Positions 14,096 through 19,222 of a stretch of DNA of 51,455 nt are shown in pieces. The stretch lies in contig CP070638.1 of NCBI GenBank assembly GCA_020354025.1, positions 1,078,795-1,130,249 of the forward strand, in the 5' to 3' direction. Within the stretch, counting starts at the first letter, position 1, and each line of letters begins with the position of its first letter. Source of the DNA: Fidelibacterota bacterium (GTDB taxonomy: Bacteria; Fidelibacterota; Marinisomatia; SCGC-AAA003-L08; TS1B11). The position numbers and the translations under genes were made by a program. Below the pieces are notes generated by a model. The model worked only from the letters and a program-made list of their open reading frames with translations. It was not told where the DNA came from and ran no database searches.

Positions 14096-14376
14096 GATAT
14101 AAAATAGATCGTCCTGCATCGGTTAAGCAACGGTTTTAGGTCCCGACGTTCAAAAGCAATTTCAACAGAAAATGATTGCATTCCCAAAAGATTCTTAAGG
14201 AGCCGGATAGTTCCCCCGGTACTGCAATTTCATCGCCCTATTTTATCATTAACGGGAGAACGGCACCTGCTGATCCCGAGCAGTCTGCGAGTAGCGCAGC
14301 TCCGTCTACTGGCATATCTGCGCCCTTCACGCAGCACAATCCCAGCACTACCGATTACTATCGCCCGCTCCCACCA

Positions 14377-14392
14377 TGTGACGCACATCACA
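14377..14392. promoter_or_regulatory. CRP/FNR-type palindrome upstream of HD-GYP gene 1
   Basis: TGTGA-CGCACA-TCACA: both half-sites match the CRP consensus TGTGA-N6-TCACA exactly. It lies 163 bp upstream of the ATG and has an exact counterpart (different 6-bp centre) before the paralogous gene. The regulator is not in the window; cAMP-CRP or a related CRP/FNR-family protein is inferred. Confidence 0.65.
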
Positions 14393-14516
14393 CTATACTA
14401 ATAAATCACTCCAAAAGACTAAATATTTTGTAACTTTTCCATATACTCCCGTCTCCATTAGTATGCCTTAGATCATTATTCCTGGTGGTTTGATGATAGG
14501 AGACCGGAACCACCAA

Positions 14517-14551
14517 CCATTTGAATCATTCTTATACTGACCGGAAAATGG
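14517..14551 (+). promoter_or_regulatory. Possible start-proximal hairpin in the HD-GYP gene 1 leader
   Basis: CCATTT (14517-14522) can pair with AAATGG (14546-14551), closing 4 nt before the start codon with a 23-nt loop. The paralog has CCGTTT (15848-15853) and AAATGG (15877-15882), again a 23-nt loop; the A-to-G change keeps the pair as G-U. One position of wobble-compatible change is weak support only. Confidence 0.3.
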
Positions 14552-14555
14552 CATC

Positions 14556-15611
14556 ATGATCAAGAAAATTAGAACAGAGGACCTGAAAGTCGGCATGTAC
14601 GTTATGCTGGGGCAGTACTGGCTGCGGCATTCCTTCATGAAGCCGAATTTTAAGATTACCTCAGAAAAACAGATCGAGAAGATCATCTCCGACAAAATAC
14701 CAGTAGTCAAGGTCGACACATCCAAAAGTGATGTGATCGAGGAGGAGGGCCTATCCCGGGAGATACCAGAGTCCCGGGATGAAGATACCGGTCAAATCCC
14801 GAAAGAGGCTCTCCGACCCGACAGCCAGATTACGGCAGAGATCCCAACACCTGAGCCAGGGGAATTAAAGCCGATAGATCAGATATCGAAGGAATTGCGC
14901 ACTACGATTGAAGATACCAGCATGCCCCCACAGATCAAGGCCAAAGCCGTTTATAATCACTCCATCAACATGATGTCAAACATCCTGAAGGAACCCAATG
15001 CTGAGAATATCCAATTTGGGAAAAGGATTGCATACGACATCGTTGACCACATCCTAGCCAATGATGAAACCGCCAACTGCATGACCCTGATCACCTCTCA
15101 CGACTACTACAACTTCACGCATTCGGCGAATGTAGGGATGTTGTCGATCTTGCTGGCCAAATCGGTGTTCAAGGGTCGCCACGGACTGAACATGCAGGAA
15201 ATTGGCGCAGGATTTTTCCTCCACGACCTAGGCAAGTGCGACATACCACACTACATAATGAATAAGCCCGGCAAGTTGACTCCCGAAGAGTGGAATTTGA
15301 TACGAAAGCATCCGCCCTATGGCGAAAAGATACTAAAGGCAACTGGGCACCTCACCAATGAGTGTAAAATAATTACCACGCAGCATCATGAACGGGAGGA
15401 TGGCACCGGCTACCCCATGGGACTCAGCAAGTCTCATATCCACACCTTTGCTCACATCTGCGCCCTAGCCGACGTCTACGATGGTCTTACCTCAATGCGC
15501 CCGTACAAGCAGAATGTCACCACTTTCGAAGCTCTCAAGATCATGAAGGATGAAATGATCGGCCACTCTAACAGCGACATTTTCGAGAAGTTTGTCCTGA
15601 TGTTCAGATAA
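14556..15611 (+). CDS. HD-GYP domain protein 1, predicted cyclic-di-GMP phosphodiesterase
   Basis: A 351-residue protein. Residues 1-55 (IRTEDLKVGMYVML...PNFKITSEKQI...VKVDTSKSD) are the DUF3391-type N-terminal module. Residues 60-110 are an acidic, Pro-rich linker. The HD-GYP domain carries HS (189), HDLGK (223-227), HP (252), HHE (277-279), DGTGYP (282-287) and ADVYD (305-309). All metal ligands of the family are present, so it is predicted to hydrolyse cyclic-di-GMP to pGpG or GMP in the cytoplasm. Transcribed alone; strongly similar to the next gene over its whole length and leader. No Shine-Dalgarno is visible, and the region just before ATG can pair with an upstream segment (14517-14522 with 14546-14551). 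It has no sensor or receiver domain, so control is probably transcriptional. Confidence 0.9.
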   Translation: MIKKIRTEDLKVGMYVMLGQYWLRHSFMKPNFKITSEKQIEKIISDKIPVVKVDTSKSDVIEEEGLSREIPESRDEDTGQIPKEALRPDSQITAEIPTPEPGELKPIDQISKELRTTIEDTSMPPQIKAKAVYNHSINMMSNILKEPNAENIQFGKRIAYDIVDHILANDETANCMTLITSHDYYNFTHSANVGMLSILLAKSVFKGRHGLNMQEIGAGFFLHDLGKCDIPHYIMNKPGKLTPEEWNLIRKHPPYGEKILKATGHLTNECKIITTQHHEREDGTGYPMGLSKSHIHTFAHICALADVYDGLTSMRPYKQNVTTFEALKIMKDEMIGHSNSDIFEKFVLMFR

Positions 15612-15886
15612 CTACTTCTCTCAGTTATGGCATCAATAACAGATCCGGATTGCGGCTTAATACGGGACGCAGGACAATCCCAGCAACACCGATCACCACG
15701 CCCCTCCATGTGATGGATATCACAGCTCACAAACAAGCCATCCATTATGGTCGAATTCTTCGTAATTTTCGACAACCTCCTTTCTCCAGCAGCTTTTCTT
15801 AGACGGTTATTATTGATGGCTTGAGGATAGGGGATGGGAACCTCCAACCGTTTGAATAATATCTACATCGAGCGGTAAATGGCATC
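15612..15886 (+). promoter_or_regulatory. Leader of HD-GYP gene 2, duplicated from gene 1
   Basis: From about 15671 this leader parallels 14334-14555: shared GGACAATCCCAGCA/CACAATCCCAGCA, ACCGAT, CCATGTGA...ATCACA, CTTAGA, GATAGG, AACCxCCAACC, TTTGAAT and AAATGGCATCATGATCAAGAA. The duplication therefore included the control region as well as the gene. No promoter hexamer pair is conserved well enough to call. Confidence 0.65.
15709..15724. promoter_or_regulatory. CRP/FNR-type palindrome upstream of HD-GYP gene 2
   Basis: TGTGA-TGGATA-TCACA, again both half-sites perfect. The 6-bp centre differs from that at 14377 (CGCACA), while all ten half-site bases are kept in a leader that has otherwise diverged, which suggests selection on the site. 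It is 162 bp upstream of the ATG, almost the same distance as in gene 1. Confidence 0.65.
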
Positions 15887-16945
15887 ATGATCAAGAAGGT
15901 GAAGACAGAAGATCTGAAAGTCGGTATGTATGTCATGCTGGGGCAGTCCTGGCTGCGGCATTCCTTCATGAAGCCTAATTTCAAAATAACCTCCGAAAAG
16001 CAGATCAAGAAGATCCTTAACGATGGAATCAAAGAGGCAAAGGTTGACACATCCAAAAGTGAGGTGATCGAGGAACGGGACCTGTTTCGGGACGTGCTGG
16101 GCTCCCGGGACGAAGATACCGGTCGAATCCAGGAAGAGGTTCCCCGACCCGACAGCCAGACAGGGACAAAGATCCCGCTGCCCGCGGAAAAAGAATTCAA
16201 TCCGATAGACCAGATCTCGGAGGAATTGCACGAGACGATCAAGAATACCAGCATACCTCCACAGACCAAGGCCAAAGCGGTCTATAATCACTCTCTCAAA
16301 ATGATGACCAATGTGCTGGAAGATCCCAGGGCCGGGAGTATTGAGAGCAGTAAGAAAATGGTCTATGACATCGTCGACCATATCCTGGCCGACGACGAAA
16401 CTGCCGAATGCATGGCCCTGATCACTTCACACGATTATTACACCTATACGCACTCGGTGAACGTGGGTATGCTTTCCGTGCTGCTGGCCAAATCGCTGTT
16501 CAAAGGCAGTTATGACCACAATATGCGGGAATTGGGCGCCGGTTTCTTCCTGCACGACCTGGGCAAGTGCGACATACCGAACGACCTAATCAACAAACCC
16601 GGGCAATTGACCAATGAAGAGTGGCAGCTGATGCGCAATCATCCCCAAAAGGGTAATTCAATTCTGGTTGATACCGATCAGCTCACCCTGGAGTGCGGAT
16701 TGATTGTCATGCAACATCACGAGCGGGAGGACGGCAGCGGTTACCCCTTCGGGCTTAGCAAGGACGAGATCCATCCCTATGCCCGCATCTGCAGCATTGC
16801 CGATGTGTACGACGCCCTTACTTCGACCCGCGCCTACAAGAAGAAGATGCCGACGTTTGAAGCACTCAGGATCATGAAAGAGGAGATGATCCAATTTTTT
16901 AATCGGGAGATATTCAACAAGTTCGTTATGATTTTCCAGGAGTGA
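15887..16945 (+). CDS. HD-GYP domain protein 2, predicted cyclic-di-GMP phosphodiesterase
   Basis: A 352-residue paralog of the preceding gene with the same order: DUF3391-type module (1-55), acidic linker, HD-GYP domain. Motifs HDLGK, NHPQKG, QHHEREDGSGYP and IADVYDALTS are intact, so it should be an active phosphodiesterase. The N-terminal 50 residues are almost identical to gene 1 (IKKVKTEDLKVGMYVMLGQS), while the linker has diverged. This fits duplication followed by divergence of the connecting region. It is followed by convergent leuB; no strong terminator hairpin is evident in the 150-bp gap. Expression is probably tied to the CRP-type site as for gene 1. Confidence 0.9.
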   Translation: MIKKVKTEDLKVGMYVMLGQSWLRHSFMKPNFKITSEKQIKKILNDGIKEAKVDTSKSEVIEERDLFRDVLGSRDEDTGRIQEEVPRPDSQTGTKIPLPAEKEFNPIDQISEELHETIKNTSIPPQTKAKAVYNHSLKMMTNVLEDPRAGSIESSKKMVYDIVDHILADDETAECMALITSHDYYTYTHSVNVGMLSVLLAKSLFKGSYDHNMRELGAGFFLHDLGKCDIPNDLINKPGQLTNEEWQLMRNHPQKGNSILVDTDQLTLECGLIVMQHHEREDGSGYPFGLSKDEIHPYARICSIADVYDALTSTRAYKKKMPTFEALRIMKEEMIQFFNREIFNKFVMIFQE

Positions 16946-18274: not shown

Positions 18275-19222
18275 CTACTGAAACAGCAGGACAAACTTCT
18301 CGAACAGGTCCCGGTTGAAGTGGCTGATCATTTCATCCCGCATGATCTTAAGTGCCTGGAAAACGCTGAGATTCTTCTTGTATGGGCGGATTGAAGTCAG
18401 AGCATCGTAGACATCGGCAAGAGCGCAGATGTGCGCGTAGACATGGATGCGGTAGCCGCTGAGTCTGTTAGGGTAGCCGGTGCCGTCCTCCCGTTCATGA
18501 TGCTGTAGGACGATTAGACTGCACTCACTGGTGAGATGACCGGTCTCACTCAGGATCCTTTCGCCATTGGCTGGATGCTGACGCATCAGGTCCCACTCTT
18601 CTTCGGTCAATCTCCCCGGTTTGTTGATGACGTAGGAAGGTACTTCGCACTTGCCCAGGTCGTGCAGGAAAAACGCGGCCCCCAGTTCGCGCATGTCGTG
18701 GTCAGCGTGGTCGCTAAAGGCGGCCTTAGACAGCAGAACCCCGAACATTCCCACGTTCACCGAATGAGTGTAGGTATAGTAATCATGGGAAGTGATCTGT
18801 GTGAGGCAGTCGGCCGTTTCATCATCCGCCAGAATAAGGTCCACCATGTCACCAACCATCTGTTTTCCGCTGAGGATGCTATCATGGGTGGGTGTCTCAA
18901 TGACGTGTTTCATCATTTCGATGGAGTGGTCATAGACGGCTTTAGCCTTTTCCTTCGGTGGGGTTCTTTTGTCTTCGATGGTTTCCCGAAATTTCTTACT
19001 GATTGTATCTAGCTGGTCGAAATCCTCAATGACCGGGACATCCACTTCACTTTTTTCCGTATCGACGTCGACGAGCGCGAGTCCCTTATCGATGATATTT
19101 ACGATCTGCTTTTCAGAAGTTATCATGAAATTTTCTTCGAAGAGGGGCAGCAGGTGGGCTTGTTCGCCCAAAGTTACGTACATGCCAATCTTCAGGTCTT
19201 CGACTTTTACTGGCCTAAGCAT
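18275..19222 (-). CDS. HD-GYP domain protein 3, predicted cyclic-di-GMP phosphodiesterase
   Basis: A 315-residue paralog on the opposite strand. The N-terminal DUF3391-type module (VKVEDLKIGMYVTLGEQ...ENFMITSEKQI...DVDTEKSEV) is clear, but the linker is about 35 residues shorter than in the other two. HD-GYP motifs are complete: HS in YTHSVNVG, HDLGKCEVP, RQHPANGE, QHHEREDGTGYP and LADVYDALTS. It lies upstream of leuB on the same strand with a 78-bp gap, so read-through into leuB is possible. Its leader lacks the TGTGA-N6-TCACA site of genes 1 and 2, so its control is likely different. No Shine-Dalgarno is visible. Confidence 0.9.
   Translation of the reverse strand: MLRPVKVEDLKIGMYVTLGEQAHLLPLFEENFMITSEKQIVNIIDKGLALVDVDTEKSEVDVPVIEDFDQLDTISKKFRETIEDKRTPPKEKAKAVYDHSIEMMKHVIETPTHDSILSGKQMVGDMVDLILADDETADCLTQITSHDYYTYTHSVNVGMFGVLLSKAAFSDHADHDMRELGAAFFLHDLGKCEVPSYVINKPGRLTEEEWDLMRQHPANGERILSETGHLTSECSLIVLQHHEREDGTGYPNRLSGYRIHVYAHICALADVYDALTSIRPYKKNLSVFQALKIMRDEMISHFNRDLFEKFVLLFQ

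Follow-up and report, generated by a model that had tools for sequence, protein, structure and literature searches.

CRP-type palindromes conserved upstream of tandem HD-GYP genes point to a CRP-family regulon in Candidatus Neomarinimicrobiota

In the window, i.e., the whole stretch of 51,455 nucleotides that was analysed, two tandem genes for predicted cyclic-di-GMP (c-di-GMP) phosphodiesterases are each preceded by a perfect TGTGA-N6-TCACA palindrome:

14377..14392, no strand assigned: CRP-type palindrome TGTGACGCACATCACA, 163 bp 5' of the ATG of HD-GYP gene A
14556..15611, plus strand: gene A, DUF3391 plus HD-GYP, predicted c-di-GMP phosphodiesterase, 351 aa
15709..15724, no strand assigned: CRP-type palindrome TGTGATGGATATCACA, 162 bp 5' of the ATG of HD-GYP gene B, kept in orthologues
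15887..16945, plus strand: gene B, DUF3391 plus HD-GYP, predicted c-di-GMP phosphodiesterase, 352 aa, 66% identity with A

A pattern scan of the window returned TGTGACGCACATCACA and TGTGATGGATATCACA as the only exact matches, each with two exact half-sites at 6-bp spacing. The first-pass annotation had placed exact palindromes at these positions, 162-163 bp before the start codons (ATG at 14556 and 15887) of paralogous HD-GYP genes, and all of this was borne out. Both proteins lie above the cut-offs of the HD_5 and DUF3391 profiles, and the HD...HHExxDGxGYP residues together with the metal ligands are retained in A, B, and eight orthologues (alignment of 10); A and B would accordingly be expected from their sequences to cleave c-di-GMP.

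Several further HD-GYP genes were encountered. A third DUF3391 plus HD-GYP gene (18275-19222, minus strand) lies beyond leuB and has a leader without the palindrome, and in five relatives (G002, G003, G004, G005, and G009) a further HD-GYP gene is located immediately 5' of the B orthologue. Nearly all close relatives that carry a name are metagenome-assembled genomes (MAGs) of Candidatus Neomarinimicrobiota, e.g., CP070656.1 with an HD-GYP protein of 74% identity, and on this basis the genome of the window is presumed to belong to the same phylum. Contig JACZSS010000309.1, filed as part of a Heimdallarchaeota MAG, contains an HD-GYP gene with 60% identity to B and is probably a contamination from a Neomarinimicrobiota genome.

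The retention of all ten half-site bases in two otherwise diverged leaders had been read in the first-pass annotation as a footprint of selection. Between the A and B leaders, identity amounts to 33/42 positions just 5' of the palindrome, 10/10 in the half-sites, and 3/6 in the centre, followed on the 3' side by 26/49, then 33/50, and finally 50/65 near the ATG. The half-sites are indeed kept and the leaders have diverged, but since the latter are still 53-79% identical outside the half-sites, the argument from two copies is weak, ten unchanged bases would be only mildly surprising, and the footprint becomes convincing only through the orthologues. A second block 5' of the palindrome, running from ACGCAGnACAATCCCAGCA to ACCGAT, is about as strongly conserved between A and B as the palindromes themselves:

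14329..14357, plus strand: shared leader block, 5' of the palindrome in the A leader
15667..15698, plus strand: same block, B leader

This block was considered as a second operator and rejected, as it is non-palindromic and was not found complete in other leaders. The overall similarity of the two leaders and the retention of blocks other than the palindrome would fit palindromes without any function that persist merely through a recent leader duplication. Such an origin is nevertheless highly improbable, as it is contradicted by the orthologous leaders of other species and genera, in which the site is kept and its surroundings are changed, and by the genome-wide enrichment of sites with a consistent extended form.

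For the comparison of orthologues, the best match was searched in the 420 bp 5' of each gene with a score matrix from which the HD-GYP sites had been left out; G001 and G010 were left out due to a truncated gene or a contig end. Relatives of the same genus and the same family retain the palindrome, which is found 146 bp before the ATG in G002, 153 bp in G003, and 157 bp in G007 copy 3, and with one mismatch 142 bp before the ATG in G007 copy 1, so that the span including A and B is 142-163 bp. Outside the palindrome these leaders have diverged so far that they cannot be aligned, and dinucleotide-shuffled leaders matched the observed score in only 0-6 of 2000 trials. In G005 the site is reduced to a degraded copy with two mismatches (TGAGATTAATATCACT, 144 bp before the ATG). 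It is absent from the 420 bp searched before the HD-GYP orthologues (60-66% identical) of G004, G006, G008, and G009, which are more distant members of the family, yet these four genomes encode the same regulator. Conservation across orthologous leaders thus held for part of the relatives, and because of the four orthologues without the site, palindrome control of the HD-GYP genes, as judged from the leaders, is specific to a subclade.

The genome of the window (G000), a single contig of 3.4 Mb, was scanned with the same pattern, and expected counts were derived from a dinucleotide model of the window. Two exact palindromes in the window compare with 0.044 expected (P for at least two, about 1e-3), and 12 exact TGTGA-N6-TCACA sites genome-wide with about 2.9 expected; the reversed control pattern had no match in the genome-wide scan. 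E. coli CRP favours a pyrimidine immediately 3' of TGTGA and a purine immediately 5' of TCACA (TGTGATCTAGATCACA). The corresponding form TGTGAY-N4-RTCACA is present in 12 of 12 exact genome sites vs 0.76 expected (P about 4e-11, with sites taken as independent even though two pairs are paralogous). About ten of the 12 sites are independent, the HD-GYP pair and the L006/L007 pair being duplicates. Eleven are intergenic, mostly located not more than about 165 bp from a gene start, and the twelfth overlaps the prfA/prmC junction. In the relatives G002 and G009, most exact palindromes lack the Y/R centre edges, and the enrichment, clear in the window's own genome, is weaker in the relatives. Sites nevertheless recur in relatives beside the same homologous genes for at least four more targets (L002 in G002, L009 in G009, L010 in G001, and L008 in G007), and the palindromes therefore represent a regulon rather than an isolated pair.

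With respect to individual targets, the divergent intergenic region L010 (G000:C1:2116570-2116614 and 2116779-2116794), located between the genes for a secreted protein resembling cadherins and for a membrane protein with a PDZ domain, harbors two exact palindromes 29 bp apart and, about 180 bp beyond them, a third copy with one mismatch. G001 likewise has two sites beside the homologues of these genes, and L010 is probably the strongest CRP-type target in the genome. The duplicated TonB-receptor-like genes L006 and L007 (G000:C1:1635238 and 1637890), which have a carboxypeptidase-regulatory-like domain, share one and the same palindrome, TGTGATTGAAGTCACA, in their leaders.

Any palindrome is open to folding in RNA and the leaders are long, so TGTGA/TCACA might also act as a small hairpin in the 5' untranslated region. 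It is the letters themselves that are conserved, however, with no compensatory changes among the leaders or the 12 genome sites, and the palindrome also precedes unrelated genes. There is no Rfam match, and the leader alignment folds weakly; a role in RNA is thus barely credible. A riboswitch or other structured leader was rejected on the same grounds (no Rfam match at E<=1; the seven-leader alignment folds at only -6.2 kcal/mol).

The genome encodes four cNMP-binding proteins, only one of which has a Crp helix-turn-helix. This regulator, L014 (G000:C1:667636-668316, 227 aa), is the genome's only CRP/FNR-type DNA-binding protein, with profile scores of 85.2 bits for PF00027, 51.4 bits for PF13545, and 36.7 bits for PF00325. 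A second Crp-type regulator was excluded, as the sole further PF13545 match is below threshold and lacks a cNMP domain. The recognition helix of L014, SRETVSR (R-E-x-x-x-R), is identical in 30 of 30 orthologues inspected. E. coli CRP recognises TGTGA through R180, which contacts G2, and through E181 and R185, which contact the G4:C4 pair (PMC11253593). The alignment places equivalents of all three residues in L014. An FNR-type operator was likewise dismissed, given the single CRP/FNR-type DNA-binding protein and the CRP-type arginine at position 180 of its helix. L014 shares 30% of its residues with E. coli CRP and scores 112.9 bits with the NCBIfam CRP equivalog NF008732, for which the cut-off is 266; because the score is far below that value, L014 is assigned to the CRP family and not to CRP proper.

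A match to L014 occurs in 53 of 60 relatives, some of which have merely distant family members; the closest relatives have clear orthologues, as do 10 of 10 relatives of the same family. L014 is missing from five small genomes that belong to a single genus (G041, G045, G047, G051, and G055) and contain 0-1 palindromes each. In G048 and G053, a palindrome lies 65 bp 5' of the regulator's own gene, which suggests autoregulation of crp in these two genomes; no palindrome precedes crp in the window's own genome. The first-pass annotation had proposed that cAMP-CRP or a related CRP/FNR-family regulator controls c-di-GMP breakdown. Control of the HD-GYP genes by a regulator of this family gains support from the orthologue sites and from the single matching regulator, and the cleavage of c-di-GMP is predicted from the proteins.

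The position of the palindromes bears on the direction of control. A candidate promoter element of the TAnnTT form follows the palindrome in both leaders:

14431..14438, plus strand: candidate promoter element TAACTTTT (TAnnTT form), first base 39 bp past the palindrome end, A leader
15763..15770, plus strand: candidate promoter element TAATTTTC (TAnnTT form), first base 39 bp past the palindrome end, B leader

The offset is 39 bp in A, B, G003, and G007 copy 1 and 41 bp in G002, i.e., in five of seven leaders, and we infer from this recurrence that TAnnTT may be a promoter element. Activation is the likelier effect, since the palindrome would be centred near -58 to -60, close to the class I position of E. 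coli CRP, if TAnnTT were a -10-type element, and a site 39-41 bp 5' of TAnnTT suggests class-I-like activation. The opposite effect, repression by a regulator that blocks a promoter overlapping the palindrome or lying 5' of it, is possible but rather unlikely: the conserved spacing of TAnnTT on the 3' side is the layout expected for activation. A scan of the A and B leaders for sigma-70 promoters on the correct strand found none, which would fit repression, although the consensus may not be that of the phylum. A precedent for such an effect is found in Vibrio cholerae, where CRP acts as a repressor of cdgA, a gene for a diguanylate cyclase (PMC4545359).

The ligand of L014 is a separate issue. 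Equivalents of E72, R82, S83, and R123, which form the phosphate/ribose pocket of E. coli CRP, are retained, and seven class III cyclase domains are encoded in the genome. Because S-D replaces T127-S128 in the C-helix and A replaces S62, cAMP binding by L014 is not certain. The same sites and regulator might therefore operate with a ligand other than cAMP, through either ligand-free DNA binding or a response to a different nucleotide, e.g., cGMP or c-di-GMP. The changed residues are those that contact the adenine in E. coli CRP, the CRP-family protein DdrI uses TGTGA-N6-TCACA without cAMP (PMC11253593), and Clp serves as an effector of c-di-GMP (PMC11139211). With a Clp-like response to c-di-GMP, as in Xanthomonas and Lysobacter, the breakdown of c-di-GMP would be under direct feedback. 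However, DdrI has lost several of the pocket residues that L014 keeps, and with the seven cyclase domains in addition, a ligand other than cAMP is unlikely. The more specific proposal that the altered S-D pocket senses a non-cAMP nucleotide, perhaps c-di-GMP, and thereby exerts direct feedback on the HD-GYP genes in Neomarinimicrobiota is very improbable.

On the side of c-di-GMP, three GGDEF domains and six HD_5 proteins above cut-off were detected in the genome, and no EAL domain protein was found there, which leaves HD-GYP as the only family of c-di-GMP phosphodiesterases detected. Of its six members, two belong to the palindrome regulon.

Overall, we consider it very likely that the palindromes are operators of the genome's single CRP-family regulator, which, probably loaded with cAMP, would activate A and B and thus lower c-di-GMP. 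A homodimer of L014, most likely carrying cAMP from a class III cyclase, would bind each palindrome via the R-E-x-x-x-R recognition helix and most likely recruit RNA polymerase to a promoter with TAnnTT as its -10-like element, which starts 39 bp 3' of the site. A high ligand level would thereby result in transcription of A and B, whose HD-GYP proteins, if active, would lower c-di-GMP; with a rise of the ligand, two of the six HD-GYP proteins would be raised.

With these findings, Candidatus Neomarinimicrobiota, a little-studied phylum for which our literature search found no relevant regulatory studies, gains a transcriptional regulon that can be tested, and CRP-type regulation is linked with c-di-GMP signalling in a genome in which HD-GYP proteins were the only c-di-GMP phosphodiesterases detected. 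The kind of gene control is ordinary, but it is newly seen in this phylum. The operators resemble those of E. coli cAMP-CRP in their half-sites, spacing, and T/C and A/G flank preference, and the regulators share the R180/E181/R185 residues; the differences lie in the phylum, the partly changed cAMP contacts, and the HD-GYP phosphodiesterase targets. By sequence, the nearest solved relatives of L014 are GlxR/M. tuberculosis Crp and the CRP-family regulators of Thermus, which have the same domain layout and S-R-E-T-V helix but differ in regulon and organism. GlxR-type proteins use TGTGA-N6-TCACA.

CRP-type regulators acting on genes for c-di-GMP synthesis or breakdown have previously been reported in Gammaproteobacteria, e.g., for cdgA of V. 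cholerae (PMC4545359), for c-di-GMP genes of Klebsiella pneumoniae including the EAL gene yjcC with a TGTGA-N6-TCACA site (PMC5025149), and for lrbR of Shewanella (PMC12415220). The perfect-site target in Klebsiella is an EAL gene, whereas the targets here are HD-GYP genes in a genome of Neomarinimicrobiota in which no EAL gene was found. The wiring of CRP to c-di-GMP enzymes is thus known from Gammaproteobacteria, and what is new is its occurrence in Neomarinimicrobiota.
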